From positions 196,201 through 260,200 of the forward strand of contig NZ_AZVB01000002.1 of the NCBI RefSeq assembly GCF_000513995.1: a DNA stretch of 64,000 nt. The letters run 5' to 3'. Position numbers and translations under genes: made by a program. This stretch comes from Pseudoxanthomonas sp. J35 (lineage in GTDB: Bacteria > Pseudomonadota > Gammaproteobacteria > Xanthomonadales > Xanthomonadaceae). The notes below the pieces were generated by a model. It was not told the DNA's origin. It saw only the letters and a list, made by a program, of their open reading frames with translations, and ran no database searches. Position 1 is the stretch's first letter. The number at the start of each line of letters is the position of its first letter. Positions 11,429 through 58,419 of the stretch are shown piece after piece.

Positions 11429-11480
11429 GGGGTTCGCCGTGCGACGGATGGTCCGTATCTGGGGTCGCGAGAAGCAGGTG

Positions 11481-11612: not shown

Positions 11613-11632
11613 CCGGACATATATGTGTCCGG
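11613..11632. repeat. Inverted repeat in the ftsZ-lpxC gap
   Basis: CCGGACA-TATATG-TGTCCGG, a perfect 7-bp stem with a 6-base loop, 78 bases after the ftsZ stop. No T tract on either side. It could be a weak attenuator or a protein site. Confidence 0.45.
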
Positions 11633-11709
11633 TTACTGCCGCCGGCAAGGACGATGGCGCGTCCCGCCGGTAATCCACTGCGGGGCCGACCCGTGGGCCG
11701 GCCGCCGCG

Positions 11710-12966: not shown

Positions 12967-12989
12967 GTCCGTTGTCCTCTGGTGGAGCC

Positions 12990-13253
12990 GTGATTGGTGA
13001 TTCGGGATTCGTGATTCGACGAACCCGCCTCGACCTCTCCGGCGTTCTCTTGTTGGTTTGTGCCTGTGCGACCGGTCCGCCGTCCTGCAGACCCACCGCC
13101 CGTTGCCAGCTTTACTGCACTTTCCCTTCCGCCTTCCCTTCCTCTTTCCTGCCGTACCTTCTCCGCCCTGCCTCCAACCCGCCTGTCCGTGACTGCCTGT
13201 CACAACCGGCAACCCGCGCTTCCACGAATCACGAATCACCAATCCCGAATCAC
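12990..13253. repeat. Inverted GATTC-type heptad repeats between ftsA and ftsZ
   Basis: 12990-13018 is four tandem copies of the heptad G(T/G)GATT(C/G); 13225-13253 is the same type in reverse complement. The two 29-base blocks could pair over most of their length and bracket about 200 bases that are very pyrimidine-rich on the plus strand and hold no gene. The same heptads occur between ftsQ and ddlB. Confidence 0.75.
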
Positions 13254-13258
13254 GGCTC

Positions 13259-14494: not shown

Positions 14495-15270
14495 GTACTG
14501 CTCGCCTGCCGTGGTTGCGTGCGCGCGGCGACGCGCGCCTGCGGGTTCGTGGGGGATTGGGTGTGGCGGCTGGCCGGGGTATCCCAGGCCAGGGTGAAGC
14601 CGTTGGTGTAGCGGAGGTCGGCGCGGGTGGCCGGGCGCGTCTGCCTGGCCAGCAGCTGCGGCAGCACGCGCACGAAGCGCTGCAGGCGCGCGCGCGCGTC
14701 GTCGCGGCCGACCACCACTTCCAGGCCGTTGTCCAGGGTCATCGACCAGCTGCCGCGTGCGTCCATGCCCAGGCGGCTGACGCCGTAGCCCAGCGGCGCG
14801 AACAGTTCGCGTGCCTGGTTGTACATCTCGACCACCTCGGCGGTGCGCGCCTCCGGGCCGTCCAGGTGCGGCATGCGCTCGCCGGCCAGGTCCTTCGGCA
14901 GCGGGAACAGCTTGCCGCGCTTCGACAGCAGCTGGTCCTCGCCCCAGAAGGCGAACGGCTCGTGCTCGACGACGTGCACGACCAGCGCATCCGGCCACTG
15001 CTTGCGCACCTGCGCGTGCTCGACCCAGGCCAGCTGCTCCACCGCGTGCTGCGCGGCATCGAGGTCCACCGCGAAGTAGCCGCGCGCGGCGTGCGGCGCT
15101 ACCGCGGCACGCAGCTGCTCGGCCTGGACCCGCTCGAACTGCCCGGTCGCGCGCAGGCGCGACAACGGCCAGCGCTCGGCGCCAACCCAGCCGTTGAGCA
15201 CGGCCACCACCGGCAGCGCGACCAGCGCCACCGCCAGCAGCCAGGCCAGGATGCGCAGCAGGGCGTTCAT
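14491..15270 (-). CDS. ftsQ: Cell division protein FtsQ
   Basis: 259-aa bitopic divisome protein: one membrane helix (about 7-28), a POTRA domain (WPLSRLRATGQFERV onward) and the beta domain that binds FtsB/FtsL. The tail (TPASRHTQSPTNPQ...) is low-complexity. ATG 15270 was chosen over a GTG three codons upstream because GGAGGTG lies 6 bases before it. That ribosome-binding site sits in a perfect small hairpin (separate entry). Confidence 0.92.
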   Translation of the reverse strand: MNALLRILAWLLAVALVALPVVAVLNGWVGAERWPLSRLRATGQFERVQAEQLRAAVAPHAARGYFAVDLDAAQHAVEQLAWVEHAQVRKQWPDALVVHVVEHEPFAFWGEDQLLSKRGKLFPLPKDLAGERMPHLDGPEARTAEVVEMYNQARELFAPLGYGVSRLGMDARGSWSMTLDNGLEVVVGRDDARARLQRFVRVLPQLLARQTRPATRADLRYTNGFTLAWDTPASRHTQSPTNPQARVAARTQPRQASST

Positions 15271-15272
15271 GC

Positions 15273-15291
15273 GGAACACCTCCGGTGTTCC
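15273..15291 (-). promoter_or_regulatory. Hairpin enclosing the ftsQ ribosome-binding site
   Basis: GGAACACC-GGA-GGTGTTCC on the minus strand: a perfect 8-bp stem with a 3-base loop that contains the GGAGG of the ftsQ Shine-Dalgarno, ending two bases before the ATG. It would hide the site unless opened by ribosomes from ddlB or by a factor. Confidence 0.5.
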
Positions 15292-15293
15292 GC

Positions 15294-15438
15294 GGGATTG
15301 GAGATTCGGGATTGGGGATTCGAAAGGGCAACAGCCACGCCCACGCCGGCCGACGACCGGCCAGCACGCAGCAGCTCCGCTCCCACGAATCCCGAATCCC
15401 GGCTTTTCACGGACGGATGTCCGGTCATCCCGAATCCC
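15294..15438. repeat. GATTC-type heptad repeats between ftsQ and ddlB
   Basis: 15294-15322 holds four heptads (GGGATTG, GAGATTC, GGGATTG, GGGATTC); reverse-complement relatives are at about 15385-15400 and 15427-15438. It is the same family as the ftsA-ftsZ block and fills the 172-base gap, where overlap is the rule elsewhere in the cluster. Confidence 0.7.
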
Positions 15439-15442
15439 GGCT

Positions 15443-16399
15443 TCATATCGTCTGCTCCAGGATCCGCCAGCACAGCTCCTCGAAGCCGATGCCGACCTGG
15501 GCGGCGGCCTTGGGCACCAGCGAGTGGCTGGTCATGCCCGGCGCGGTATTCACTTCCAGCAGGCTCGGCGCGCCGGTGGCGCGCGAACGCATGACGTCGA
15601 CCCGGCCCCAGCCGGTGCAGCCGGCGGCACGGAACGCGGCCAGCGCCAGCTCGCGCACGCGCAGCTCGTCCTCGCCGTCCAGGCCCGGGCACAGGTACTG
15701 GGTGTCCTCGGCGATGTACTTGGCGTTGTAGTCGTACCACGCGCCCTTGGGCACGATGCGGATCGACGGCAGCGCCACGTCGCCGAGGATGCCGACGGTC
15801 AGCTCGTCGCCGACCACCATCTGCTCCATCAGCAGCTCGCCCGGATAGCGCGCGGCCAGCGCCACGGCGGCGTCCAGGTCGGCCTCGTCCAGCACGCGCG
15901 ACACGCCCACGCTGGAACCCTCGCACGAGGGCTTGACGATCACCGGCAGGCCCAGGTTGCGCGCGGCCGCGTGCACGGTCGCCGCGTCGGCGCCGCGCTC
16001 CAGGCGCACGTAGCGCGGGGTCGGCAGGTTCAACGCCAGCCACACCTGCTTGGTGCGGATCTTGTCGAGGGTCAGCGCCGAGCCGAGCACGCCGGCGCCG
16101 GTGTACGGCACGCCCAGCGCCTGCAGCAGGCCCTGGACCACGCCGTTCTCGCCGTCGCCGCCGTGCAGGATGTTGAACACGCGGTCGAATTTCTTCTGCG
16201 CCAGCGCCTCGACCAGCACCGGGATGCCGTCGACCGCGTGCGCGTCGACGCCGTGGGCGCGCAGCGCGTCGAGCACGTTGCGGCCGGAATCCAGCGAAAC
16301 CTCGCGCTCGGAACTGGTCCCGCCCATCAGCACGGCGACGCGACCGAACACGGTCGGGTCGGTGTAGCGCGGCGGCGGCAGCACGGTGGTGATGCTCAT
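15443..16399 (-). CDS. ddlB: D-alanine-D-alanine ligase DdlB
   Basis: 318-aa ATP-grasp enzyme joining two D-Ala for the peptidoglycan stem peptide. Visible: [19 protein letters not shown] at the N-terminus, the nucleotide loop EGSSVGV, and metal-binding [13 protein letters not shown] near the C-terminus. ATG 16399 overlaps the murC stop by four bases. Confidence 0.96.
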
Positions 16400-17838
16400 G
16401 CCTGTCCCCCCGCAGCGCTGGTGAAGCCGTCGCTGGCGATCTGGTGGGCGATGTACCCGATGTCGCCGGCGCCCATCATCAGCAGCAGGTCGCCGTCCTG
16501 GAGCACGTCCGGCAGCACGTGGCGCAGGTCGCCGACCTGCCCCACCACCACCGGCTCGCTGCGGCCGCGCGCGCGGATGGCGCGGGCCAGCGCGCGCGCG
16601 TCGGCGCCCGGGATCGGCGCCTCGCCGGCCGGGTAGACCTCGCTCAGCACCAGCGCGTCGGCCTCCGACAGCACCGCGGCGAAGGCGTCGAACTGGTCGC
16701 GGGTGCGGCTGTAGCGGTGCGGCTGGAAGGCCACGACCAGGCGCTTGTGCGGCCAGCCGCCACGGGCGGCGGCGAACACCGCCGCCAGCTCGCGCGGATG
16801 GTGGCCGTAATCGTCGACCACGCGCACCGTTGCGCCGGTGACCGTGCTGACCTCGCCCAGGTCGTTGAAGCGGCGGCCGATGCCGGCGAACTTCTCCAGC
16901 GCCGAGGCGATGTCCTGCGGCGACACGCCCAGCTGCCAGCCCACCGCGGCGGCGGCCAGCGCATTGAGCACGTTGTGGCGGCCCGGCAGGGCCAGGCTCA
17001 CCGGCACCGTCGCGCCTTCGGGCAGGCGCAGGGTAAAGCGCATGCGCGGGCCTTCCTGGACGATGTCGTCGGCGCGCACGTCGGCATTCTCGGCGGTGCC
17101 GTAGGTCATCACGTGGCGCGGCGTCTGCGCGGCCAGCTTCGCCACTTCCGGATCGTCGATGCACAGCACTGCCAGGCCGTAGAACGGCAGGCGCTGCAGG
17201 AACTCGGCGAACGCGCCCTGCAGGCGGGCGAAATCGCCGCCGTAGTTCTCCAGGTGGTCGGCATCGATGTTGGTGATCACCGAGATCAGCGGGTTCAGGC
17301 GCAGGAAGCTGCCGTCGCTCTCGTCGGCCTCGGCCACCAGCCACTGCCCGCCGCCGAGCTTGGCGTTGGCGCCGGCGGCCAGCAGCTGGCCCCCGATCAC
17401 GAAGGTCGGGTCCAGTCCGCCCTCACTGAGCACCGCGGCGGTCAGCGAGGTGGTGGTGGTCTTGCCATGGGTGCCGGCCACGGCGATGCCGCGGCGGAAG
17501 CGCATCAGCTCGGCGAGCATCGCCGCGCGCGGAACGACCGGGATGCGCTGGCTGCGCGCCTCCATCAGTTCCGGGTTGTCCTCGCGGATCGCGCTGGAGA
17601 CGACCACGCAGTCGGTGCCCAGCACGTTGGCGGCGGAATGGCCGCGGATCACCCGCGCACCCAGCCGCACCAGGCGGCGGGTCGCGGCGTTGTCGGCGGT
17701 GTCCGAACCGGACACCTCGTAGCCCAGCGTCAGCATCACCTCGGCGATGCCGCTCATGCCGGTGCCGCCGATGCCGACGAAATGCACGCGCGGGAACGCG
17801 CGTACCAGGTCGCCGGTGTCGTGCAGGCGGCGGATCAT
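16396..17838 (-). CDS. murC: UDP-N-acetylmuramate-L-alanine ligase MurC
   Basis: 480-aa Mur ligase adding L-Ala to UDP-MurNAc. N-terminal Rossmann [14 protein letters not shown] (about 19-32), P-loop GTHGKTTTT near 120, [15 protein letters not shown], and C-terminal YGHHPRE. Overlaps murG and ddlB by four bases each, so translation is probably coupled. Confidence 0.97.
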
Positions 17839-18953
17839 GGGGAAACTCCAGTAGACGTATCGGGGGAAAGGGATTCTTCGAGGACGATGGCGGCGATCCG
17901 TGCGGCGGCGTCCGGGCGCGCCAGGCCGCGCGCAGCCATGGCCATCGCCATGCGACGCGCGGGGTCGGCGGCCAGCGCGCGCAGCGCGCCCTGCAGGTTC
18001 GCGGCCAGCTGTGCGTCCTGCTTCAGCAGCAGGGCGGCGCCGTTCTCGACCAGGTATTCGGCGTTGCGGGTCTGGTGGTCGTCGACCGCGGCGGCGAACG
18101 GCACCAGCACGCTGCCGACGCCGGCCGCGCACAGCTCGGCCAGGGTGGAGGCGCCGGCGCGGCACACGACCAGGTCGGCCCAGGCATAAGCGGTGGCCAT
18201 GTCGTCGATGAAGGCCTCGACGCTGGCGTCCACGCCCGCCGCGGCATAGGCGGAGTCTGCTTCCGCGCGCAGCTTCTCGCCGCACTGGTGGCGGACCTGC
18301 ACCGGCAGGTCGCGCAGCGCGGCCAGCGCCACCGGCACGGCCTGGTTGAGCGCGCGTGCGCCCTGGCTGCCGCCCAGCACCAGCAGGCGCAGCGGACCTT
18401 CGCGGCCGGCCAGGCGCTGCTGCGGTGGCGGCAGCGCCGCGATCGCGGCGCGCACCGGATTGCCGGCCACTTCCTCGCGGGCGAAGCTGCCCGGGAAGCC
18501 GGCGAGCGTGCGCCGCGCCAGGCGCGACAGCACGCGGTTGGTCATGCCCGGCGCGCGGTTCTGTTCGTGCACCAGCAGCGGCAGGCCCGACAGCCAGGCG
18601 GCGACCCCGCCGGGGCCGGAGGCGAAGCCGCCGAAGCCGATCACCGCGCGCGGACGCCGCTGGCGCAGCACCGCGCGCGCCGCGTTGACCGCGCGCGCCA
18701 GGCGGAACGGCGCGGCGAGCAGGGTCGCGGCACCCTTGCCGCGCACGCCGGCCACCGGCAGCGTGTCGATCTCGATGCCGTGCTGCGGCACCAGCCGCGT
18801 CTCCATCGCGCCGGCCGCGCCCAGCCAGACCACGGGCACGCCGCGCTCGCGCAGCTCGTGTGCCACGGCCAGCGCCGGGAAGATGTGGCCACCGGTACCG
18901 CCGGCCATCACCATCACCGGGCGCGCGGAAGCGGAAGGCTGCACGCTGCTCAC
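17835..18953 (-). CDS. murG: MurG, N-acetylglucosaminyltransferase (lipid I to lipid II)
   Basis: 372-aa GT-B enzyme at the inner face of the membrane. [14 protein letters not shown] near residue 18, HEQNRAPG, and the C-terminal donor-site region [11 protein letters not shown] and [11 protein letters not shown]. The start codon is GTG: it overlaps the ftsW stop as GTGA and has GGAGG six bases upstream, and no nearer ATG fits. Confidence 0.95.
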
Positions 18954-20299
18954 GGCAGGCCTCCGAAGGTCGGTTCGATGCGCGAGGTGCCGCGCCCGCG
19001 CAGGATGGCCGATGCCGAAGCCGGCACCGTGGCGGCAGCCACCGGGGCCACCTTCGCGGGCGCACGCGGCGCGGCGGCCGGCGCCGGCGCGGCGGGCGCG
19101 GCGGCCGGAGCGGCGGGCTCGGCCGGCATCGCATCCTGGCGCACGGCACGCTGGCGCTCGGCGCGGTCCAGCTCGTAGCTGACCCGCAGCAGCAGGCCGA
19201 TGGCCACGCAGGTCATCATCACGCTGGAGCCGCCGGAGGAGATCAGCGGCAGGGTCAGGCCCTTGGTCGGCAGCATGCCCAGGTTCACGCCGATCGAGAC
19301 GAAGCCCTGCATGCCGATCCACAGGGCTACGCCGAAGGCGATGTAGCCGGCGAAGTGGCGGCGCATCTCCACGCACTTCAGGCCCAGGTGCAGCGCGCGC
19401 CCGACCAGCAGCATGTACAGGCCGATCACCAGGCAGACGCCGGCGAAGCCCAGCTCCTCGGCGATCACCGAGAAGATGAAGTCGGTGTGCGCTTCGGGCA
19501 GGTAGTTGAGCTTCTGCACCGACGCACCCAGGCCCACGCCGAACCACTCGCCGCGGCCGACCGCCATCAGCGCGTTGGACAGCTGGTAGCCGGCGCCCAG
19601 CTGGTCCTTCCACGGGTCCATGAACGAGGTGATGCGGCGCAGGCGGTACGGCTCGATGATCGCGACGATCACCAGCAGCGGCAGACCCAGCACGATCGGC
19701 AACGACATCCGCGGCAGGTTCACCCCGCCCAGCACCAGCATGCCGGCGGTGATGCCCAGCAGCAGCGTGGCCGAACCGAAGTCCGGCTGCGCCAGCAGCA
19801 TCACCACCATCAGCGCCGCCACGCCCAGCGGCTTGAGCATCGCCGGCCAGGTCGCGTTGACCTCGTCGCGGAAGCGGACCAGGTAGCTGGCCAGCCACAC
19901 GATGTAGAGCACCTTCACCGCCTCGACCACCTGGAAGCGAGACAGCCCCAGGTTGACCCAGCGCCGGGCGCCGTTGACGCTCACGCCCAGGCCCGGCAGC
20001 CACGGCAGCAGCAGCAGGACGAAGCAGCCCAGCAGCAGCAGCTGGTTGTATTTCTCCACCGTCTTCAGCTCGGTGCGCATCACCAGCACGGCCAGGCCGA
20101 TGCCGACGCACAGGAAGACCACGTGGCGCACCAGGTAGTGGAACGGCCCCACGCCCAGGTTCTCGCCGATCGCCACCGAGGCCGAACCGACCATCACCAC
20201 GCCCAGGCAGGCCAGCGCCACGGCCGCGGCCGCCAGCCACGGGTCGAAGTGGCCGCCGATGGCCTCCAGCCGGGTCGCTTGGCGCGAGAGGTCGTTCAT
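18950..20299 (-). CDS. ftsW: Divisome peptidoglycan polymerase FtsW (SEDS)
   Basis: 449-aa SEDS glycosyltransferase that works with FtsI at the septum. About ten membrane segments, [12 protein letters not shown] after the fourth, the [17 protein letters not shown] motif and the SSGGSS signature near the C-terminus. It has an Ala/Pro-rich tail of some 55 residues, making it longer than most FtsW proteins. It follows mraY with a 1-base overlap (TGATG), so murD, which sits between them in E. coli, is absent here. Confidence 0.96.
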
Positions 20300-48095: not shown

Positions 48096-48318
48096 TCAGT
48101 CGGCGTAAGGCGAACGCACCGGCTGCGGCTGCCGGCCGAGGTTGGCGCCGAAGCGGTCGAGCAGGAAACGCAGGTACAGGTTGGTGCCGTACTGGCGGTA
48201 GTCGCGGGCGTTGTTCAGGTCCACCCGGCCACCCAGGAACAGCTGCCGCGACAGCTGCCACTCGGCCGCGGCGCTGAGGTTGTAGGACTGGCCGGTATGG
48301 CTCTGCGCCGGTCCGGCG
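48096..48318 (-). pseudogene. bcsC: 3' remnant of bcsC (cellulose synthase outer-membrane subunit)
   Basis: The last 70 or so codons of a BcsC-type beta-barrel: AQSHTGQSYNLSAAAEWQL then GGRVDLNNARDYRQYGTN and LYLRFLLDRFGAN before the TGA. It has no start and is out of frame with the bcsA fragment it joins. It marks the right end of an internal deletion that removed the rest of bcsA, and everything to the distal part of bcsC. The 290-base gap to its left (47806-48095) shows no feature. Confidence 0.8.
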
Positions 48319-49096
48319 AGAAGAAGTAGTGCGGGGTCTGCACCACCGCCAGCTTCGGGTCGCGCAGGAACCAGCCCATCGACACCTGCAGGAACGAGCG
48401 CGCCGGGATGTGGTCGCAGTCGAAGATGGCGACGAACTCGCCGCTGGACTTCTTCAGCGCGGCGTTGATGTTGCCGGCCTTGGCATGGTTGTTGTTGGTG
48501 CGGGTGACGTAGTGCACGCCGACCTGCTCGCAGAACTCGCGGAACTCCTCGCGGCGGCCGTCGTCGAGCACGTGGATGTTGAGCTTGTCCACCGGCCAGT
48601 CCAGCACGGTGGCGGCCAGCACGGTGGTGCGCACCACCGCCAGCGGCTCGTTGTAGGTGGGGATGAACACGTCCACCGTCGGCCACTGCGACTGGTCCGC
48701 CGGCAGCGGCAACGGCTTGCGGTTCAGCGGCCAGGCCACCTGGAAGTAGCCCAGCACCAGGATCAGGTAGGCGTAGACCTCGGCCAGCACCAGGCCCAGG
48801 CCGAGGGTGAGGTCGACGAAGCTGCTCCAGCCCATGGTCTCGGTCAGCCGCCACCACATGTAGCGGGTGGACATGGCCAGGGACAGGCCCATCATCGCCA
48901 GCACCGCCAGGCGGCTGCCATTGCGACGCAGGAGCAGCGCGGCGATGAACACCACCGCCGAGAACACCAGCTGCGGACCGGCCGCGAGCGGGACGGTGGC
49001 CACGAACGCCAGCACCGGCAGGGCGCTCGCCCACAGCACGACGCGGGCGCTCCAGGCGCCTGGCGCCTGGCCCTTCGGGCCCCGTTGCGGATCCAT
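48215..49096 (-). pseudogene. bcsA: 5' part of bcsA (cellulose synthase catalytic subunit), truncated
   Basis: About 263 native residues from ATG 49096 (AAGGAGA upstream): membrane segments about 20-100, then VDVFIPTYNEPL, VLDDGRREEF and FDCDHIPARSFLQ, the first aspartates of the GT2 site, up to VVQTPHYFFSPD. From there the frame runs through out-of-frame bcsC sequence and stops at 48215. The catalytic base (TED), QxxRW, the translocation helices and the PilZ c-di-GMP domain are all missing, so it cannot make cellulose. Confidence 0.88.
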
Positions 49097-49202
49097 CGAT
49101 TCTCCTTCACCGGCCGCGCGGGCGGCCGGTCGCGTTCTCATCGGGAATGGGGGGCTGCCGCCGGCCCGATGCTCCGGCGTCGCGCAACCCCGGGAAGTGC
49201 GC

Positions 49203-49682
49203 TCAGCGGAACAGGCGGCGCAGCGGGCTTTCCTCGCCGCCGGACTCGCTCCGCCCGCCTTCGGCCAGGCGCTGGAACAGCTGTTCCAGCGGCGTCCTGG
49301 CAGGCTTGGCCGTGGTCCGCGCGGGATCGATCAGGACCACGGTGCCGCGCGCCGGCGCCGGGCCGGCAGCCGGCGCACGGGGTGCGGCCGACCCGGCCAG
49401 CATCCCCGGGAGGGTGCCGGTCGTCGGCGCCTGCACGGCGGTGGTGACCGGGGCCGGTTCCTGCACGGCCTCCAGGGCCGGCGCCTGGGGCGCGGGCTCG
49501 ACCGGGTCGGCGGGCACAGCGGCCGCGGCGGAAGCCGACGCAGCCGGGGCGGACGGAGCCTTCAACGCGGCCAGGGAGAACACCTGGTAGCCGACGGGCG
49601 CGTCACCCTGCACGCCCACCCGGGCGAACAGGCCGGCTACATCGTCGAGTGGAACGCCGGCCTGGGACTTGCTGCTGCTCAT
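49203..49682 (-). CDS. BcsP-like protein with BcsR domain (cellulose operon accessory)
   Basis: 159 aa. The N-terminus (VPLDDVAGLFARVG...GYQVFS) matches the small BcsR/BcsP regulatory domain found in cellulose operons; the middle is Pro/Ala-rich and the C-terminus has a short basic motif (SPLRRLFR). Its ATG overlaps the bcsD stop by one base. Intact, but with bcsA truncated it has no obvious function left here. Confidence 0.7.
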   Translation of the reverse strand: MSSSKSQAGVPLDDVAGLFARVGVQGDAPVGYQVFSLAALKAPSAPAASASAAAAVPADPVEPAPQAPALEAVQEPAPVTTAVQAPTTGTLPGMLAGSAAPRAPAAGPAPARGTVVLIDPARTTAKPARTPLEQLFQRLAEGGRSESGGEESPLRRLFR

Positions 49683-50143
49683 CAATGGGACCTGCTCACG
49701 ACACACGACACAGAAGGCACGTCCGGGGATTCGGCCGCGCCGGTGCTGACATCCAGGCGCGCGGACATGCCGGCGGCCCGGAACCATTCGCGGTAGACCC
49801 CTTCCAGGAAGCCCGTGGCCAGCGACGTCTGCCCCAGCACCGCGGCCAGCGGCGAGGCGACGTGGCGGATCACCACCTGGTCCGGCTGCTCCTCGAACAC
49901 GGCGAAGCCCCAGTCCAGCGAGGACCAGAGGGCGTCGACATGGGCCTGGAGTTCCTGGAGGGTGGCGGCCCTGGGCAGCGGGTGGGCCTGGGCGAAGCGG
50001 CGACCGATGCGGGCCATCAGCCGCGCCTGGTCGTCCTCGTCGAGGGCTTGTGCCACCTCTTCCGCCAGCGCACGGACGAACCCGCGCCACTGGGGCGAAC
50101 AGGACTGCGAGCGGTAGTAGTCCAGCGTATTGTTCAGATTCAT
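49682..50143 (-). CDS. bcsD: BcsD, cellulose synthase subunit D
   Basis: 153 aa of the BcsD family, a periplasmic ring protein that orders cellulose export sites in type I operons. Recognised by NTLDYYRSQSCSPQWRGFV, the RIGRRFAQAHPL region and LDWGFAVFEE. It is the first gene of the bcs remnant and still has an intact upstream region with an inverted repeat resembling a CRP/Clp site. Confidence 0.75.
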   Translation of the reverse strand: MNLNNTLDYYRSQSCSPQWRGFVRALAEEVAQALDEDDQARLMARIGRRFAQAHPLPRAATLQELQAHVDALWSSLDWGFAVFEEQPDQVVIRHVASPLAAVLGQTSLATGFLEGVYREWFRAAGMSARLDVSTGAAESPDVPSVSCVVSRSH

Positions 50144-50461: not shown

Positions 50462-51163
50462 TCAGGGAAACACGTCGATGAACGTGTTGATCGACAGCCG
50501 CCCGTTGCGCGGGTCCGGCGGCGGGACGCGGCTGTTGTCGATGGTCGCCGAATGCAGGGAATTGCGCCGGTACACCAGCATCCGGTTGTAGACGCCGTCG
50601 ACCTTGTCGATCCGCTCGAACAGTGGCGTGTCCTCGCCGATGTAGCCCGGGCTGGGCGCGTCCGGGCCGAGGCTCTCCATCTGCAGGCGGGTGAAGTAGG
50701 CCAGCTCCCGGTCCTCGTCCACGTACTCGTAGCCGGTGCTGCGGTGGCGGTAGAAGGCGGTGCCGCCCCAGCCCTCGTGGAACAGGTAGTGCACCGTGGC
50801 CAGGCCGCGCCCGGTGGCCGAGTCGATGTGCGGGATCCGCTGCAGGAACACCAGCTTCTCCGGTGGCTGGGTCACCAGCGAGTAGTGGCACATCGGGAAG
50901 GCCAGTCGCGCCTGCGGCGGCAGTCCGAACACCTCGCCCATGAGCGGCCGCAGCAGTTTCTCTAGGAAGGCCTCGTAGGACAGCGGCGCGCGCATGCGGA
51001 TCCCGGGGAACATCGCCCCCTGCGGGGTGAAGTGGCCGCGCTCGGCCTTGCGCACGAGCCGGTCGGGATCGGCCACCAGCTGGTCGATGACCAGCAGCGG
51101 TGCGCCCTCGGCGCCGATCCGCCGTACCTGGAGGTGCAGCCCGGGATGCGCCTCGATCAGCAT
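50462..51163 (-). CDS. DUF6445 family protein
   Basis: 233 aa. Has HYLFHEGWGGTAFYRHRSTG and YNRMLVYRRNSLHSA, a pattern like the H-x-D/...H of 2-oxoglutarate/prolyl-hydroxylase-like folds, but I cannot confirm a metal site. Members occur beside tryptophan-halogenase-like genes and TonB receptors in Xanthomonas and Caulobacter relatives. It is seven bases after the halogenase gene and is the last of the run. Confidence 0.65.
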   Translation of the reverse strand: MLIEAHPGLHLQVRRIGAEGAPLLVIDQLVADPDRLVRKAERGHFTPQGAMFPGIRMRAPLSYEAFLEKLLRPLMGEVFGLPPQARLAFPMCHYSLVTQPPEKLVFLQRIPHIDSATGRGLATVHYLFHEGWGGTAFYRHRSTGYEYVDEDRELAYFTRLQMESLGPDAPSPGYIGEDTPLFERIDKVDGVYNRMLVYRRNSLHSATIDNSRVPPPDPRNGRLSINTFIDVFP

Positions 51164-51170
51164 CGGCGCA

Positions 51171-52799
51171 TCACCGGACCAGGCCGCCGCCGAGGCCGGC
51201 GATCCTGCCGGTCACCTTCTCGTGCTGCCGGGCGCGTGCGTACATCTCCTCCCAGGCCGAGGGCGGCGCCTTGCAGTAGCTCGCGATGAACTGCTCCTGG
51301 CTGGGCATGGCCGCCACGGCGGCTTCGATCGGCCTGCGCACGCCCTCGAGCAGGCGCTTGAGGTCGGCGTCCGACAGCGCGCGGGTCAGCGGATGGTGGC
51401 TGCGCGGCATCACGCCCTGGCCGAGCATGCAGTGGGTCCAGGAATCGAGGCGGAACAGTTCGTCTTCCCCCTGCCACGCGTAGCCGGTCTCGCGGAACAC
51501 CTGGATGCGCTCGCCCAGGCCGGGTGGCAGTTCCATTTCGCGGCACTGCTTCCACAGCGGCTCGTCGCGCTGGTTGAGGTGGTAATGCATCACGACGAAA
51601 TCGCGGACGTGCTCCAGCTCCTGGCGACTGACCTCGTTGAAGCGGTCCACCGCCGCCTGGCTGATGCCCTCGGAGGGGAAGAACTGCACCAGGCGGGTGA
51701 CCGCGCTCAGGGTCAGGTGGATGCTGGTGGACTCCAGCGGTTCGATGAAGCCGCTCGCCAGCCCGAGCGCGATCACGTTCTTGTTCCAGGTCTTGCGCCG
51801 GCGACCGGTGCGGAACGGGATGATCCACGGGTCGCGCAGCGGCTTGGCCGGGTTCTCGGCGAGCAGCCTGGCGGTCGCCTCGTCGTCGGACATGTGCGCA
51901 TCGGAAAACACGATGCCGCACCCGATCCGGTGCTGGAGCGAGATCTTCCAGTGCCAGCCGGCCTCGTGCGCGATCGCGCGCGTGTACGGCACCGGCGGCC
52001 CGTCGGCTTCGGTCTGCAGCGCCACCGCGCGGTTGCTTGGCAGCCAGTGGTTCCAGTCCTCGTAGCCGGTGTGCAGCGCCTGCTCGCTCAGCACCGCGCG
52101 CGCGCCGGTGCAGTCGATGAACAGGTCGCCCTCGATGACCTGCCCGTCCTCCAGCACCAGCGCCTGCACGTAGCCGCTGTCCGGATCCTGGCGCACCTGC
52201 GCGATCTTGCCCTCGACGCGCCTGAGCCCGCGGCCCTCGCACTTGACCCGCATGAACGCCGCATACAGCCCGGCGTCGAAGTGGTAGGCGTAGCTCACCT
52301 CGCGACGCTCCGCCGTGGCCGCCTTGGTCCAGCGCATCGACCACTGCTGGGCGTTCTGGCCGGCATCGAACAGGGCGAACCGGTCCTGGAGCGCGGCGAC
52401 GGTTTCCAGGCAGTAGTCGCCCAGTTCGCTCTGCATGCCGCGGCGGCGGCTTTCCAGCCAGAACTGGTGGAAGTCGCACGACCAGGTGTTCACGCCGGTG
52501 GTGCCGAACGGATGGATGTAGCGCGACCCCGGGCGGAGCCAGTTCTCGAACGAGATCGCCAGCTTGAAGCTGCCGGCGACCGAGCTGAGGAATTCGCGCT
52601 CGTCGATCTGCAGCAGGCGGTGGAACGTGCGGATGGTCGGGATCGTGGACTCGCCCACGCCGACGGTGCCGACCTGCTCGGACTCCACCAGGGTGACGTC
52701 CAGCAGGTCGCGGAACTGGTGGGTCAACGCGCACGCGGCCACCCATCCGGCGGTACCGCCGCCGGCGATGACGACCTTGCGGATCCTGTTGTTCTCCAA
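51171..52799 (-). CDS. Flavin-dependent (tryptophan-type) halogenase family protein
   Basis: 542 aa. FAD motif GGGTAG (13-18), the GESTIPT loop (49-55), the conserved lysine at position 79 (GSFKLAIS), which in PrnA/RebH is the catalytic Lys79, and GFIEPLESTSIH with the conserved glutamate. The flavin monooxygenase-blocking motif WxWxIP reads WHWKIS (Pro replaced by Ser). Characterised members chlorinate or brominate tryptophan or indole; those linked to TonB receptors have mostly unknown substrates. Lies between the cupin gene (112-base gap) and DUF6445. Confidence 0.88.
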   Translation of the reverse strand: MENNRIRKVVIAGGGTAGWVAACALTHQFRDLLDVTLVESEQVGTVGVGESTIPTIRTFHRLLQIDEREFLSSVAGSFKLAISFENWLRPGSRYIHPFGTTGVNTWSCDFHQFWLESRRRGMQSELGDYCLETVAALQDRFALFDAGQNAQQWSMRWTKAATAERREVSYAYHFDAGLYAAFMRVKCEGRGLRRVEGKIAQVRQDPDSGYVQALVLEDGQVIEGDLFIDCTGARAVLSEQALHTGYEDWNHWLPSNRAVALQTEADGPPVPYTRAIAHEAGWHWKISLQHRIGCGIVFSDAHMSDDEATARLLAENPAKPLRDPWIIPFRTGRRRKTWNKNVIALGLASGFIEPLESTSIHLTLSAVTRLVQFFPSEGISQAAVDRFNEVSRQELEHVRDFVVMHYHLNQRDEPLWKQCREMELPPGLGERIQVFRETGYAWQGEDELFRLDSWTHCMLGQGVMPRSHHPLTRALSDADLKRLLEGVRRPIEAAVAAMPSQEQFIASYCKAPPSAWEEMYARARQHEKVTGRIAGLGGGLVR

Positions 52800-52911
52800 G
52801 ACTCCCTCCCCTCAGCATTGCATTGCCGCGTCGCGCGGCCCGTTCGTCCCACCGGCGTCGCTTGCGCCGCCTGCCCCTGTCCCGCTCCGCGAGCGCGCGT
52901 CGCCGCGCGGA

Positions 52912-53934
52912 TCAGCGGTTGAGCTTGCCCATCAGCAGCGCGCGCATGCGGCGCGCGGTCATCTCGTCGAACGGCCCGAGGAAACCGCGCGCGGCCTCGG
53001 GCAGGTGCTCCACGGACCGTCCTGCAGGGCCGAACACGTAGTACTCGAACACTTCGCGCCAGGCCTGCTTCTCGTTCTCGGGCCGGTCGCGCAACGCCCA
53101 GATCGCGTGGTAAAGCGCGTGCATCGGCGTGGGGATCCACGCCGGCATGCTGCCCCACCAGTAGTTCACCAGCACGGTGAACGGGTCCAGTCCCTGCACG
53201 TGGTGCCACCACATGCTCGGGATGAAGATCGCGTCGCCCGGCTCCAGCACCACGCTCTGGCCGACCGCCATCGCCTCGCGGAAGCGCGGGAAGCGCTCCA
53301 GGTCCGGCGCGTTGAAATCGACCACGCTCACCGCCTGCCCGCCCGGCGTGGGTTCCAGCGGCCCCGGGTAGAGGTTGCCGATCTGGTCCGGCGGGAACAG
53401 GGTGAAGCGGCGCCGGCCCACGGCGCAGCAGGCGATGTTGTTCGGCGCGTCGTAATGGCACGAGGCGGTGACCCGGTTGCCGATCCAGATCGCCGGCGGC
53501 GCCTCGACGCCGTGCGCGGCGAAGTCCAGGTCGTTGCCGGCGCGCAGGCCCGGCAGGCAGTAGTCGACCAGCAGCGAGGCGACGTAATAGGTGGGCGGAC
53601 GCGGATCGTCCTGGAAGCCGGCCAGCTCGTCCAGCACCTGGTCGAGAGTGCCGCGGCGGACCTCGCAGTTGAGCCCGGTGAACCCGGGCCTGTAGAACGG
53701 GCGGCCCGCGGTCTCCGGCTCGCCCCAGTTGTACTGCACCGGACGGCCGTTGTAGTGCGCGCGCAGCTCGTCCATCGCCGCCTGTGGCGAACGCAGGCCC
53801 GCCTGGACCAGGGTCCAGTCGCGGGCCAGCCCCTTGAGCACGGTGGGCAGGTTGTCGCGCAGCAGCGTTTCCAGGGGCAGCGCATCCGGGCGGCAGCCCT
53901 CGATCACACGCACGCTTGCCAGCTGGTCGAGCAT
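52912..53934 (-). CDS. Cupin-like (Cupin_8 / JmjC-type) protein
   Basis: 340 aa. JmjC/FIH-like core with HYDAPNN (metal His and Asp) and PSMWWHHV (second His), GNLYPGPLEPTP before the far strand. This type, once called Pass1-related, recurs with SapC-like and halogenase-like genes near TonB receptors. Likely Fe(II)-dependent, substrate unknown. Follows the SapC gene with one base between. Confidence 0.8.
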   Translation of the reverse strand: MLDQLASVRVIEGCRPDALPLETLLRDNLPTVLKGLARDWTLVQAGLRSPQAAMDELRAHYNGRPVQYNWGEPETAGRPFYRPGFTGLNCEVRRGTLDQVLDELAGFQDDPRPPTYYVASLLVDYCLPGLRAGNDLDFAAHGVEAPPAIWIGNRVTASCHYDAPNNIACCAVGRRRFTLFPPDQIGNLYPGPLEPTPGGQAVSVVDFNAPDLERFPRFREAMAVGQSVVLEPGDAIFIPSMWWHHVQGLDPFTVLVNYWWGSMPAWIPTPMHALYHAIWALRDRPENEKQAWREVFEYYVFGPAGRSVEHLPEAARGFLGPFDEMTARRMRALLMGKLNR

Positions 53935-53935
53935 C

Positions 53936-54688
53936 TCAGGCTGCCTGCTCCTGCCTGCCTTCCTGTTCGCGGATGCGGCGCTGCTTCTCGGCGATCAGCC
54001 GGCGCATGTTGTACAGCGAGCTCAGCACCAGGTAGGCGCCTTCCAGCCAGCCGGAGCGGTACAGGCCGTGCAGCGCCTCGGCATCCAGCGCCGCCAGGCG
54101 CTCGCGGTCGATGCCGTAAAGGCCGGTCAGCTTGACCTGGTGGGCGTCGTCGAAGCGGATCTCCAGGGTCACCGGCTGGACCAGCTGCAGCGCGTCGAGC
54201 GCGGCGAACATCTCGCGCCCGGCCTGCACGCCGTCGTTGATGCCGCGCAGCACGGCGATGACCCGGTCCAGGTAGGGCGTGTTGCCGCCGTGCTCGGTGA
54301 ACACCGGCTCGCCCTCGCCGCCGGCGACGCGCGGGTGCTCCAGGTCCACGTGGACCACCGGCTCGGCGCGCAGCTGGCCGTCGACCTGCCGCTCCTGGAA
54401 GCCGATCAGGAACGGCCCGCGCGCCACCGCGCCGGGCAGGTAGGTGGCGTTCCAGCGGTCGCCGTCCAGGTACAGGTTCTCGCGCTGCTCGAAGCCCAGC
54501 AGGGCGATCGCGTGGAACTGGCCGTCGGCGTCCTTGCGCAGGAAGATCGGGTATTCGCGCTGCAGCTCGGCGAACTCGGTGGGGAAAGCCTGGACCATGC
54601 CGACGTCGTCGCCGAACTGCGCGCCGAAGCGTGTGGTCACGCGCAGGTTCGCGTGCGCGATGTTGTCGAGCAGTTCGTATCGGGCCAT
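53936..54688 (-). CDS. SapC family protein
   Basis: 250 aa of the SapC family: ANLRVTTRFGAQFG near residue 14, FPTEFAELQREYPIFLRKD, FQERQVDGQ, a C-terminal basic coiled segment. First named for a Campylobacter S-layer locus; in Xanthomonas it accompanies CUT-type loci. GGAG five bases before the ATG. It opens the four-gene run after the receptor's terminator. Confidence 0.82.
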   Translation of the reverse strand: MARYELLDNIAHANLRVTTRFGAQFGDDVGMVQAFPTEFAELQREYPIFLRKDADGQFHAIALLGFEQRENLYLDGDRWNATYLPGAVARGPFLIGFQERQVDGQLRAEPVVHVDLEHPRVAGGEGEPVFTEHGGNTPYLDRVIAVLRGINDGVQAGREMFAALDALQLVQPVTLEIRFDDAHQVKLTGLYGIDRERLAALDAEALHGLYRSGWLEGAYLVLSSLYNMRRLIAEKQRRIREQEGRQEQAA

Positions 54689-54816
54689 CTCGGCTCCATT
54701 GGATTCGTCGGCCCCGGTGGTGCCGGCCTGCCCGGGCCGCGCGCAGGCCACGGCGCGACCATATCGGCAATCCCGCGCGGGCCGCAAGCTGCGCCGCGAC
54801 GGCATCCCCGGGGGTG

Positions 54817-54848
54817 AAAAAAGGGACCGCTGCGGGGCAGCGGTCCCT
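54817..54848 (-). terminator. Intrinsic terminator of the TonB receptor gene
   Basis: Minus strand AGGGACCGCTG-CCCCG-CAGCGGTCCCT, an 11-bp perfect stem followed by a T-run. It separates the receptor from the SapC run, which would need readthrough or its own promoter in 54689-54816. Confidence 0.93.
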
Positions 54849-54883
54849 CTGCTTCATTGCGACAAGCGTACGGGCGGCATCGG

Positions 54884-57800
54884 TCAGAACGTGTAGCGCA
54901 CGCCCACCATGTAGCGCGGCGACTGGTCGAGCAGGCGGACCATCTGGTTGTGCGAACGGGCGCTCCAGCGGATATCCTCGCCGGTGAGGTTGATCGCCTC
55001 GAGCGACACGGTGAAGTTGTCGTTGAAGCTGTACGCCACCGAGAAGTCGATCTGCTCGTACTCCTCGACGAAGTACGGGTTGCGGTTGTTGCCGTTCTGG
55101 TTGGCCGCCAGCAGGTACTCGTCGCGCCAGTTCCAGGCCAGTCGCGCCGACCAGCCGTACTTCTCGAACATCAGCACGGCGTTGGCGGTGTCGCTCAGCC
55201 CGGTCAACGCGAACACGTTGGCGCCCGGGTCGGCCGCGCGGTCGATGCCGACGTCGCCCTTGACGATGGTGTAGTTGGCCAGCAGGCCGAAACCACTGTC
55301 GCCGAAGAAGTACTGGCCGCCGATCTCCCAGCCGTGCAGCCTGGCCGAGCGCTGGTTGATCGGGCGGTTGACGTCGAACTCGTACAGCGGGTCGGCGGAC
55401 GTGCCGACGATGTCGAAGCGGTTCTCCATGTCCAGGACCTGGGCGTTGCTGCCGTCGTAGGCGGCCAGGCCGCCAGTCGCGGCCTCGTTGCGCAGCATCG
55501 CCAGGGCGGTGAACAGCGTGGTGTAGTTCCCCACGCAGCCCTCGGCCGGGTCGTTACCCGCGGCGGTGACCTGGGTCTGGCACGCGGCGCTGTTGAGGAA
55601 CGCCAGCGCCGCCTGCGCGTCCGGGCCCGAGGTCGGGTCGGTGATGCCGTACAGGTTCTCGCGGACCACCGTGTTGCCGATGAAGTTCTTGACGTCCTTG
55701 TTCCAGTACGTCACGCCGACGAAGCTGGACGGCGCGAAGTACCACTCCAGGCCGAGGTCGATGTTGCGCGACTCCAGCGGCAGCAGCGACGGGTTCTCGG
55801 CGTTGCCGGTGCCGCGGAACTGCTCGCCGAACAGGATCGAACCGCTGGGCGCGCCGGGGTTGGGACCGGCGTAGAGGTTGCCGTACGGCGCCCGGGCGAT
55901 GGTCTTGCTCGCCGAGAAGCGGCCCTTCAGGTCGTCGGTGAAGTCGATGCTGAAGTCCAGGTTCGGCAGCAGGTAGTCGTACTCGTTCTTCTCCGAGAAC
56001 GGCTGGGCCTCGTCCGAACGGTTGATCACGAAGTCGTTGTTGGACATCCAGCGGATGCCGTTCGGGACCTGGATCACCGAGGTCGAGGTCAGCTCGGTCT
56101 TCTCGTAGCGCAGGCCGATGACGGTGTAGGTCGGCATGCTGCCGAGGTGGCCGTCCTGCTCCCACTGGATGTAGACCGACCGGGTCTCCTCCTCCACCAG
56201 GTTGTCATTGTCGTAGACCGTGCGCACCTTCGAGCTGAGCGTGTCGCACTCCGGCCACGAGGCCGGGGCGGTGCCGTTGGCGCAGGCCTCCTCGGCCCAC
56301 TGCGCCAGGGCGCTGGCCTGGCCCCACCACGCGCCGCGCGCGGCATCGGTGGTGTCGTAGTCCTTGAACAGGTCGACGATGCTGAAGGCCTTGAGCAGCG
56401 CGGCCATGCCCGGCACCTGGCCGGTGTCGTTCGCGCTCCAGTTGCCCAGGGTCATCAGGTGGGCGTGGCCGTCCACGTTCAGGCGCCGCATCGACACCTC
56501 GGACGAATCGACGCCGAACTTGAAGCGGCCGTTATCGAAGTCGAGCACGCCGTCCAGCCTGCCCTGCTTGACCTCGCTGTCCTGGCGCGTCGACCAGATG
56601 CGCAGGATCTGCGAGCCCAGCTGGTCGGGGGCGAAGTCCGGGTTGATGATGCCGTTGGTGTTGGCGATCGCGTCGGCGGTGGACGGGAACAGCGTGCGCT
56701 TCATGATCGGAAGGCCGCTGTTGAACCAGTACTCCTGGGTCCAGTTGTTGTTGAGGCGATCCGGGGCCAGGCCGGCGAAGCTGAAGGCGGTGGAGCTGCC
56801 GCCGGTGATCGGGTCGTTCGGCCGGCTCTCGTTCTTGGTGTTGTGCGCGTCGAAGTTCAGGGAGAAGCGGTCGCTGACCTGCCACTGCACGTTCAGGCCC
56901 AGCGAACCGAGCTTGTACTTCTGCTCGTCGCGCTGCTGCTCGAAGCCGAAGTCCTTGCCGGCGCCGGCGATGTCGCGGATGTAGACCGGCGTGGCCACGT
57001 CCGGGTCGTCGTCGAAGGTCACGTGGCTGAGGCTGTTCTGCAGCCACATGGTCTGCTCGCCACGGTTCTGCGCGATCTCGTTGGTCGAGTAGGTGTAGTC
57101 CAGGGTGAAGGTGAACGCGTCGTTCGGGGCGAACTGCAGGATCGCCTGGCCGTTGATGCGCTCGCGCTCGAAGTCCTGGAAGGCGTAGCGCAGGTCGTTC
57201 GGCATGCTGTACAGCTGGCCGATCGCCGGCGCGTTCTCCACGATCGCGCCCGGGCGCAGGCGCGAGTCGGTGCCGGTCCAGCGGGCCACGTTCCAGGCGT
57301 TCTCGGTGGCCTGCACCGAACCGCCGTGGCGCTTCTGGTAGCTGGCGTTGACGCCGATGCCCCAGGTCTTGTCCGGGTTGGCGTAGCTGAAGATGCCGGA
57401 GATCTCCGGGGTCGCGTCGCTGCCGAAGATCTGCGACTGGTCGGACACGGCCTTGGCGCCGATGTTGGCGACGATGTCGCCGCCGGCATGGTTCAACGGC
57501 CGGTCGGTGAGGATGTCGATGGTCGCGCCGATGCCGCCGCTGGCCACGTTCGCGCGGCCGGTCTTGTACACGGTCACGCCGCTGATCGCTTCGGAAGCCA
57601 GCTGGGCGAAGTTGAAGCCGCGGGTGCCCGAGCCGACGCCGCCGATCTCAAGGCCGCCGCTGCCGAAGCCGTCGGCGCCGGGGATCTGCCGGCCGTTGAG
57701 GGTGACCATGTTGAAGTTGGGGCCGAAGCCGCGCGCGGTGATGGTTGCGCCCTCGCCGTCGCGGCGCTCGATCGAGATGCCGGTAACGCGCTGCAGCGAC

Positions 57801-58078
57801 TCGGCCAGGTTGGTGTCCGGGAACTTGCCGATGTCCTCGGCGCTGATCGCGTCGACGATGCCGGGGGTGTCGCGCTTGATGTTCATCGCGTGGTCGAGGC
57901 TGCTGCGCATGCCCGTGACCGTGACGGTGTCCAGCGTGGTCGGATCGTCCTGGGCCGCCGACTGCGCCGCGGTGGCGGGCTGCTGCGGATCCTGGGCGAA
58001 CGCCGGGTTGATGATGATGACGCCGCCGACGATGGTGAACATCGCCTTCGACTTGAAGCGCTTGATCCTGGAAGTCAT
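54884..58078 (-). CDS. TonB-dependent receptor, Xanthomonas/Caulobacter type
   Basis: 1064-aa outer-membrane transporter. Signal peptide ends near FAQ, then a short linker, TVTVTGMRSSLDHAMNIK at the plug start, plug domain with RGFGPNFNMVTLNGRQIPG and SGGIGATIDILT, then a 22-strand barrel ending in GVRYTF. Ribosome site AGGA eight bases before ATG 58078. The family (TonB-Xanth-Caul) mostly imports plant oligosaccharides; the upstream XylR-like operator supports a carbohydrate substrate. Confidence 0.93.
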   Translation of the reverse strand: MTSRIKRFKSKAMFTIVGGVIIINPAFAQDPQQPATAAQSAAQDDPTTLDTVTVTGMRSSLDHAMNIKRDTPGIVDAISAEDIGKFPDTNLAESLQRVTGISIERRDGEGATITARGFGPNFNMVTLNGRQIPGADGFGSGGLEIGGVGSGTRGFNFAQLASEAISGVTVYKTGRANVASGGIGATIDILTDRPLNHAGGDIVANIGAKAVSDQSQIFGSDATPEISGIFSYANPDKTWGIGVNASYQKRHGGSVQATENAWNVARWTGTDSRLRPGAIVENAPAIGQLYSMPNDLRYAFQDFERERINGQAILQFAPNDAFTFTLDYTYSTNEIAQNRGEQTMWLQNSLSHVTFDDDPDVATPVYIRDIAGAGKDFGFEQQRDEQKYKLGSLGLNVQWQVSDRFSLNFDAHNTKNESRPNDPITGGSSTAFSFAGLAPDRLNNNWTQEYWFNSGLPIMKRTLFPSTADAIANTNGIINPDFAPDQLGSQILRIWSTRQDSEVKQGRLDGVLDFDNGRFKFGVDSSEVSMRRLNVDGHAHLMTLGNWSANDTGQVPGMAALLKAFSIVDLFKDYDTTDAARGAWWGQASALAQWAEEACANGTAPASWPECDTLSSKVRTVYDNDNLVEEETRSVYIQWEQDGHLGSMPTYTVIGLRYEKTELTSTSVIQVPNGIRWMSNNDFVINRSDEAQPFSEKNEYDYLLPNLDFSIDFTDDLKGRFSASKTIARAPYGNLYAGPNPGAPSGSILFGEQFRGTGNAENPSLLPLESRNIDLGLEWYFAPSSFVGVTYWNKDVKNFIGNTVVRENLYGITDPTSGPDAQAALAFLNSAACQTQVTAAGNDPAEGCVGNYTTLFTALAMLRNEAATGGLAAYDGSNAQVLDMENRFDIVGTSADPLYEFDVNRPINQRSARLHGWEIGGQYFFGDSGFGLLANYTIVKGDVGIDRAADPGANVFALTGLSDTANAVLMFEKYGWSARLAWNWRDEYLLAANQNGNNRNPYFVEEYEQIDFSVAYSFNDNFTVSLEAINLTGEDIRWSARSHNQMVRLLDQSPRYMVGVRYTF

Positions 58079-58405
58079 GGGTGCTGTCCTCAGCTGCTCG
58101 GGTGTTGGACGGCCAAGGGCACGTCGTCCTTGATCCACGACGCGGCATGCGCCGGCGCGGTCGTTGACAGCGCGGGACACCGCAACCTGCAACTACTCAT
58201 CTGCCTACCCTCCCCTTCTGCTGCTTCGATTTTTGTGGATGGCGCCCCGGCGGGGGCCTGGCAGGCCGCGGTGGGCCTGTGCAACTGGACCGGGAGTCCT
58301 TGCTGCGAACCGGCGGGTCGGGGTTCCGCCGGCGAAACCGATCGAAAGCGGTGGAGCGCGACGGGGCCGCTGCCGGCCTGTCGTCGTGGGCGGTGTTGCC
58401 ACCCT

Positions 58406-58419
58406 TGATAGCGCTAACA
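58406..58419. promoter_or_regulatory. XylR-box-like LacI-family operator
   Basis: TGATAGCGCTAACA, one base from the xylan-regulon box TGGTAGCGCTAACA known in Xanthomonas. It lies about 330 bases before the TonB receptor gene. The 752-base gap 58079-58830 has no gene; it also holds a second AGCGCT-centred palindrome (GCCAGCGCTGTC, about 58642-58653) that resembles other LacI-type boxes. Confidence 0.6.

Follow-up and report, generated by a model that had tools for sequence, protein, structure and literature searches.

A TonB-dependent receptor gene followed by SapC, cupin, halogenase and DUF6445 genes in a xylan-type regulon: a putative receptor-modifying cassette

Genes and regulatory features of the locus

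In the window, the whole 64,000-nucleotide stretch of Pseudoxanthomonas sp. J35 DNA analysed here, a TonB-dependent receptor gene is followed on the same strand by genes for a SapC-family protein, a cupin, a flavin-dependent halogenase-like protein and a DUF6445 protein. All five genes are confirmed at the coordinates given in the earlier note and lie on the minus strand; each family is recognized by its profile score (Table 1). The intergenic gaps are short, except for 195 bp between the receptor and SapC genes and 112 bp between the cupin and halogenase genes. By eye, the N-terminus of the receptor is signal peptide-like, and no signal peptide is seen on the cupin, halogenase or DUF6445 protein. 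The start codon of the halogenase gene locates 4 bases 3' of GGGGAGGG.

Table 1. Features of the receptor locus in the window, in the order of transcription
Feature	Position	Strand	Evidence or remark
XylR-type operator TGTTAGCGCTATCA (gene-sense reading)	58406-58419	-	341 bp before receptor start
36-codon candidate leader ORF (MSSCRLRCPALS...)	58090-58200	-	strong Shine-Dalgarno; between operator and receptor
TonB-dependent receptor, TonB-Xanth-Caul family	54884-58078	-	TIGR01782, 738 bits (cut-off 310)
Terminator-like hairpin, then T run	54821-54849	-	37 nt past receptor stop codon
SapC-family protein, 250 aa	53936-54688	-	PF07277, 226 bits (cut-off 28.9)
Cupin_8/JmjC 2OG-Fe(II) oxygenase-like protein	52912-53934	-	PF13621, 227 bits
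Flavin-dependent halogenase-like protein, TTG start	51171-52799	-	Trp_halogenase PF04820, 613 bits
DUF6445, predicted prolyl/lysyl-hydroxylase-like 2OG-Fe(II) oxygenase	50462-51163	-	PF20043, 264 bits

The short ORF upstream of the receptor may encode a leader peptide or form part of an RNA element; a short Cys-containing leader ORF also precedes some related receptors. Since terminator-like hairpins follow 12 of the 37 receptors fetched as lacking a cassette as well, the hairpin behind the receptor gene carries little weight. Identical sequences were removed before some of the locus comparisons, one of those on hairpins among them.

The operator is an exact fit to TGNTAGCGCTANCA. With up to two mismatches allowed, 1.2 such sites are expected in the window by chance, so the word by itself proves little. 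The genome holds four exact sites, against none for the reversed control. Genes near the other three encode an FGGY-family kinase, a LacI regulator and GH67, or else UxaC, GH115 and a TonB receptor. A LacI-family regulator is thus present in the genome, beside GH67 in L001. Among 53 rows of related loci, 40 have the operator word upstream of the receptor at a distance of 250-420 bp, a count that includes the window and in which some loci were fetched and counted twice (e.g. L044/L077, L052/L082, L054/L083); base-shuffled upstream regions of these loci give about zero. Because the operator recurs in related loci and the other exact sites lie among the xylan genes of the genome, the locus is, judged by sequence, an xytA-like part of a XylR regulon, which is a known kind of locus. 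The assignment to a XylR-type regulon in the earlier note is thereby upheld.

We take XCC2828 to be xytA. According to PMC1790865, Xanthomonas and Caulobacter have in common a conserved receptor locus induced by xylan or xylose, with XCC2828 in the former and CC0999 in the latter. It is probably the xytA locus that PMC3826837 names among the xylan loci xytA, xylR, xytB and xylE. The window locus shares with XCC2828/CC0999 the TonB receptor, the palindrome of the xylan regulon and the conservation between Xanthomonas and Caulobacter, and would be orthologous to it. The term 'undescribed system' in the earlier note is therefore less well supported for the entire locus, whose type is already in print in these two papers. 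For the function of the enzymes, we found no description in the open-licence literature searched.

Association of the cassette with TonB-dependent receptors

We surveyed 49 of 60 genomes, the window's own being among the 60, for the receptor subfamily and the cupin; the 11 left out include a SapC match in G014 only. Both occur in 23 genomes, the cupin alone in one and neither in 25 (Fisher 4e-13, uncorrected for kinship). This near-perfect co-occurrence of the receptor subfamily and the cupin is new here. A cupin lies within 5 kb of 38 of 40 receptors, although for three of them it belongs to a neighbouring module, and a TonB receptor adjoins 37 of 39 cupins; for these counts, coordinates were entered by hand and the split receptor hits of G027, G034, G048 and G051 were joined by hand. 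Of the receptors, two have no cupin within 5 kb, one at a contig end in G010 and the other at G005:C4. Of the cupins, two lack a receptor, one at the partner of that contig end in G010 and the other on an 8.3-kb contig of G057.

In most loci, linked receptors score 480-2450 bits to the window receptor, and 32 receptors without a cassette score 74-227 bits. By these scores, the cassette-linked receptors appear to be a subfamily. In one comparison, L056 was reassigned to the linked receptors, and L141_463, L081_17 and L213 were left out. The window cupin has 583 relatives, of which the best 80 were compared, a set biased to close kin. In these 80 loci, receptor, SapC, cupin and halogenase genes are all present in 73, a receptor in 78 and DUF6445 in 17; one of the seven loci short of the four genes, L147, is a 3.1-kb contig. 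L151 holds a cupin and a halogenase, with no receptor in 13 kb.

The module is found in Xanthomonadaceae, plant pathogens among them, and also in Caulobacterales, sphingomonads, Hyphomonas and Cellvibrionales; L140 and L154 are examples from Caulobacter. The link between these gene families and TonB receptors, as claimed in the earlier note, is conserved across Xanthomonadaceae, Caulobacterales, sphingomonads and Cellvibrionales, and a lack of conserved co-occurrence, which would have spoken against it, is excluded by the neighbourhood comparison together with the 49-genome count. Linkage and co-inheritance alone could yield both the co-occurrence and the matching trees.

The enzymes of the cassette mix and match, and the receptor is nearly always there. 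We observed loci with only receptor and cupin (L149, L155, L232), with receptor, SapC and cupin (L130, L132, L136), with only receptor and halogenase (L222, L225, L236, L271, L276 and others) and with halogenase, DUF6445 and receptor (L218), as well as receptor-SapC pairs adjoining a full module (L059, L066, L073).

In four genomes, picked because each holds a module, 15 of the 17 genes with a PF04820 hit above 400 bits have a receptor gene upstream on the same strand, at most 5 kb away, where our own estimate of the chance rate is 3.5-10% per gene. The receptors upstream of these 15 halogenases are of several kinds, including Oar-like OMP_b-brl_4. Halogenase lineages track the receptor class, with 12 label changes against a shuffled mean of 34.6, and the Oar group forms one clade. 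No receptor was found within 5 kb of 11 of 38 halogenases, namely 9 of 21 in L218-L237 (20 stretches hand-picked from halogenase or cupin hits) and two among the 17 hits of the four genomes. GH97 or pullulanase genes adjoin the receptor-less halogenases of L219, L223 and L226, and likewise the halogenase of L220.

The cassette proteins and their relatives

The halogenase carries the flavin motif GxGxxG (G13-G15, G18) and the catalytic K79, all invariant in 15 sequences. At the position of WxWxIP, found in 9 of these 15 aligned halogenases, the putative halogenases of the window, L047 and L061 read WHWKIS, in which both Trp and the Ile are kept and the Pro is replaced. The nearest solved relatives of the window enzyme are 9luq, Xcc4156 (6y1w) and BrvH (6frl); with the last two it shares PF04820, the flavin motif and the catalytic Lys. 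According to passages of PMC7336383 and PMC5945002, Xcc4156 and BrvH act on indoles and not on free Trp. In a comparison of 280-300 residues, Xcc4156 shares 90% identity with the product of the fourth gene in a receptor-SapC-cupin-halogenase module (L268), and the nearest relative of BrvH among the loci examined, with 65% identity, is encoded after a receptor gene (L273).

The flavoproteins QhpG, LodB and GoxB modify residues of a partner protein. The window halogenase is weakly similar to their profiles (37.8, 23.5 and 22 bits), and membership of these families is ruled out, as the scores fall far under the curated cut-offs of 240, 400 and 400.

The closest solved relatives of the cupin are the asparaginyl hydroxylase FIH and JMJD5. 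Its Fe ligands H160, D162 and H244 and residues N166 and N257 are invariant in 12 sequences, and the HxD...H ligands together with two Asn near the cosubstrate align with those of FIH. The cupin differs from FIH at the Lys that binds 2OG there, where it has an invariant Arg175; we do not file it as an FIH. Arg can fill the 2OG-binding role in other 2OG enzymes.

DUF6445 is predicted to adopt a prolyl/lysyl-hydroxylase-like 2OG-Fe(II) fold, with H112xD114...H204...R222 invariant in 18 sequences. Its fold matches include OGFOD1, lysyl hydroxylase LH3, Tpa1, PHD2 and P4H, and also PasI and PolD. Compared with the 2OG-Fe(II) protein hydroxylases OGFOD1/Tpa1, PHD2 and LH3, DUF6445 is a single domain with 14% identity.

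The fold of SapC is predicted with confidence (pLDDT 95); none of the solved chains examined matches the model well, and a profile search assigns the protein to no enzyme family. In L033, a divergent SapC adjoins a ShlB-type two-partner secretion gene, which gives a second context of an exported protein.

Possible substrate of the cassette enzymes

We tentatively favour a mechanism in which cytoplasmic oxygenases, with SapC as an adaptor, would modify the nascent receptor as their putative substrate, and we rate its chance as slightly short of even. When xylan breakdown products are lacking, a LacI-type repressor would sit on the operator. Upon induction, the receptor would be made in large amount, and SapC, the cupin, the halogenase and DUF6445 in smaller amount owing to the hairpin behind the receptor gene. 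The three enzymes would act in the cytoplasm, where SapC would present the receptor chain. Before export, side chains of the unfolded receptor would be hydroxylated by two proteins, the JmjC protein that resembles FIH and DUF6445 with its prolyl-hydroxylase-like fold, and the flavin halogenase would brominate or oxidise one of the receptor's indole or phenol groups. The modified receptor may bind or transport a decorated xylo-oligosaccharide better. A broader proposal is more doubtful still, namely that Proteobacteria post-translationally hydroxylate and halogenate (or flavin-oxidise) their nutrient receptors before export. The genes of the FIH-like, PHD-like and halogenase-like enzymes in charge would follow each receptor gene, and SapC would be the adaptor.

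Three targets had been suggested from the window, that is, a glycan, an aromatic group attached to it and the receptor itself. We favour the receptor because the same enzyme families go with different receptor classes and different sugar loci, and because the enzymes resemble protein-modifying oxygenases. The nearest relatives or fold matches of the three oxygen-using enzymes either have proteins as substrates or do not use free tryptophan. On the other hand, both 2OG folds and the halogenase family include small-molecule enzymes, such as PasI and PolD among the fold matches of DUF6445, which counts against receptor modification. No target residue was found in the receptor. Six of its seven conserved Trp are kept in all five halogenase-less loci, and the seventh, W399, is Phe in two cupin-only loci and Trp in the other three. 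Likewise, of the residues shared by 95% or more of 22 receptors with DUF6445, none drops to 50% or less in 24 receptors without it. Since both searches were negative, we only infer that the receptor is the substrate.

The enzymes might instead hydroxylate or halogenate the imported ligand, for example a feruloyl or other decoration of the xylo-oligosaccharide, during its breakdown in the cytoplasm. The XylR-type operator and the xylan regulon fit this explanation, as do the predicted cytoplasmic location of the enzymes and the halogenases found beside GH97 and pullulanase genes. We nevertheless regard it as unlikely, as the same families accompany different receptor classes at loci for different sugars, the enzymes vary independently around a nearly constant receptor, and neither an esterase nor a known aromatic-catabolic enzyme is among the five genes; we also know of no carbohydrate breakdown that includes a halogenation step. 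Somewhat less likely again is a non-catalytic or chaperone-like role in assembly, in which SapC, the cupin and the others would bind the receptor chain by means of reused enzyme folds. Such a role would suit the strict pairing of receptor and cupin, the failure of SapC to fit an enzyme family and its divergent relative by the two-partner secretion gene, but the cupin (12 sequences), DUF6445 (18) and the halogenase (15) show no variation at the residues for metal, cosubstrate and flavin, which speaks for catalysis. Still less probable, in our judgement, is a biosynthetic cassette whose product, a small molecule or peptide carrying halogen or hydroxyl groups, is exported or recognized by the receptor as a signal, antibiotic or ligand. 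Flavin halogenases are common in biosynthesis and some receptors are preceded by the Cys-containing leader ORF, yet no biosynthetic backbone, carrier or peptide-export gene is among the five genes, and cassettes cut down to a receptor with one or two enzymes would be hard to make sense of.

If receptor modification is true, the cassette would be, to our knowledge, the first one dedicated to the chemical modification of outer-membrane receptors; none was found in the open-licence literature either. Uptake would then require oxygen, iron, 2-oxoglutarate and perhaps halide. For Xcc4156 and BrvH, both orphan halogenases, it would mean a protein substrate. The native substrate of these solved halogenases and the roles of SapC and DUF6445 would become directly approachable, and one result would inform many genomes because the module is widespread. 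Should the enzymes have another substrate, the choice is still narrowed by the conserved linkage to something common to several receptor classes. The module together with the operator also occurs in Xanthomonas loci (e.g. L088, L092, L100, L107), and DUF6445, present in the window, is found in none of the ten Xanthomonas loci among the best 80 of 583 cupin relatives.

The gene set and its linkage to the receptor

In the window, the SapC, cupin, halogenase and DUF6445 genes that the earlier note had placed on one strand behind a TonB receptor are indeed present, and all five genes are arranged head to tail. Judged by eye, the receptor alone carries a signal-like N-terminus; SapC, cupin, halogenase and DUF6445 lack one. 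The set is flanked upstream by a nicotinate phosphoribosyltransferase gene and downstream by a damaged cellulose synthase operon, neither of which seems related to the finding. In this remnant, subunit D (PF03500) is followed by a glycosyltransferase-2 start (BcsA-like), to which the C-terminus of BcsC (PF05420) is joined directly in another frame. It looks as though the central part of the operon had been lost.

Features of the receptor locus and its surroundings, in window coordinates
Feature	Position	Strand	Remark
Operator TGTTAGCGCTATCA	58419-58406	read with minus-strand genes	exact fit to TGNTAGCGCTANCA
36-codon ORF	58090-58200	minus	strong Shine-Dalgarno; between operator and receptor
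TonB receptor	54884-58078	minus	
Terminator-like hairpin	54849-54821		3' of receptor gene
SapC	53936-54688	minus	
Cupin_8/JmjC	52912-53934	minus	
Trp-halogenase family	51171-52799	minus	
DUF6445	50462-51163	minus	
Cellulose synthase remnant	48096-50143	minus	

We compared neighborhoods in stretches of up to 20 kb and in 80 named loci, the best 80 of 583 relatives of the window's cupin. The order receptor-SapC-cupin-halogenase, often with DUF6445, occurs in Pseudoxanthomonas, Luteimonas, Lysobacter, Stenotrophomonas, Xanthomonas, Steroidobacter, Caulobacter, Sphingomonas, Hyphomonas, Microbulbifer and further genera. In Asticcacaulis (L113, L114), there is also the variant receptor-halogenase-SapC-cupin. 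A survey of 60 genomes, including that of the window, recovered SapC in 29. Among 49 genomes, 23 hold both the receptor subfamily and the cupin, one the cupin alone and 25 neither. A cupin lies within 5 kb of 38 of the 40 subfamily receptors, although for the second receptors of three genomes (G006, G009, G015) the cupin counted belongs to the neighboring module; one of the two remaining receptors is at a contig end. Against the window's receptor, 32 cassette-less receptors score only 74-227 bits and three more stretches give no match, which indicates by score that the linked receptors, those accompanied by the cassette, form a separate subfamily.

L055 (8402-9151) and L072 (9440-10162) each carry a solitary window-type SapC gene with a purL-like gene (FGAR-AT domains) close by; at the thresholds used, their genomes, G004 and G016, gave matches to neither the receptor nor the cupin nor the halogenase. 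In genome G014 (57% complete), two module copies (L075, L076) are split into many short frames.

Operator and leader region

The genome contains four exact operator places, and the reversed control gives none. The other three lie in L001 and L002. Besides a LacI regulator and a GH67 protein, L001 encodes a kinase of the FGGY family that its context marks as xylulokinase-like; L002 holds GH115, UxaC and a receptor. Where the receptor scores >1000 bits to the window's, 40 of 53 rows (window counted) have the operator word 250-420 bp upstream of it; with more distant receptors, 3 of 58 rows do, both counts taking in duplicate loci. Base-shuffled sequence has about none. Looser LacI-type palindromes precede 20 further distant receptors. 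Therefore, the window's copy is part of a xylan regulon, and the cassette as such is not bound to this operator.

The 36-codon ORF is possibly a leader peptide. Upstream of linked receptors, 15 of 112 rows show an N-terminal MxxC...C pattern; without two duplicates, these are 13 distinct receptors, window counted. The pattern precedes none of 46 other receptors. In Bordetella, a Cys-rich copper-responsive leader stands upstream of a TonB receptor.

A xylan-regulated receptor locus is of an already known kind: in PMC1790865, XCC2828 and CC0999 are described as conserved and as induced by xylose, and PMC3826837 names the xytA locus. In the open-licence literature, we found no paper assigning a function to the SapC-cupin-halogenase set. 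The earlier note's view of a candidate undescribed system is thus less well supported for the locus as a whole.

Combinations of the cassette families

The families also occur in other combinations. Some receptors are accompanied only by a cupin (L149, L155, L232) or only by one halogenase (L222, L225, L236, L271, L276); others have a pair of halogenases (L273, L278), SapC plus cupin (L130, L132, L136), or DUF6445 plus halogenase (L218). Receptor with SapC alone adjoins a full module in L059, L066 and L073; these are tandem receptor-SapC pairs, with cupin, halogenase and DUF6445 in one unit only, and the second SapC of L059 and L066 is broken into two frames. L213 (3983-13403) and L230 (5465-14934) represent a second arrangement of the same families, in which a cupin and three halogenases occupy the strand opposite to that of a distant receptor (118 bits in L213). 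In L033 (region 9413-19501), the neighbors of a divergent SapC are a two-partner secretion protein of ShlB type and a giant 2570-aa ORF, and SapC of L042 adjoins a 3153-aa ORF.

All 17 PF04820 matches >400 bits were surveyed in two Xanthomonas and two Caulobacter genomes, picked for holding a module. A same-strand receptor lies no more than 5 kb upstream of 15, the exceptions being L274 and L280. These receptors are members of the window's subfamily, other TIGR01782-like receptors, Oar-like proteins that carry OMP_b-brl_4, and a single receptor containing an STN domain. Of 21 halogenases in an additional hand-picked set, 12 lie within 5 kb of a receptor; four of the nine others (L219, L220, L223, L226) are in alpha-glucan loci, as GH97 or pullulanase genes adjoin them. 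In L219 and L220, the stretch with the Trp-halogenase also encodes DUF6445.

The receptor chain as a possible target

The enzyme set follows receptors of various classes and sugars in varied combinations and resembles protein hydroxylases; this would be explained best if the cassette enzymes worked on the shared partner, the receptor chain. The substrates of FIH and of prolyl and lysyl hydroxylases are extended peptide segments, which fits an unfolded receptor chain before export. A tree of 99 halogenases, a thinned set of 153, shows 12 changes of receptor label versus 34.6 in shuffles, and the Oar-linked halogenases form one clade; shared ancestry alone can also account for this clustering.

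We looked for a target residue in the receptor through Trp conservation and DUF6445 tracking and found none: six of seven conserved Trp are retained in halogenase-less loci, W399 is Phe in the two cupin-only loci and Trp in the other three halogenase-less loci, and no residue tracks DUF6445 cleanly. Clade-specific residues (e.g. W345, W547, W677, N309, D708, R1041) are not telling, since any subfamily has such residues. For want of a target residue, we give receptor modification by the cassette enzymes slightly less than an even chance.

The terminator-like hairpin after the receptor gene, present in 63 of 109 gaps, would make the receptor abundant and the enzymes scarce, which suits the roles of substrate and catalyst. 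However, of 37 receptors retrieved as unlinked, 12 also have such a hairpin.
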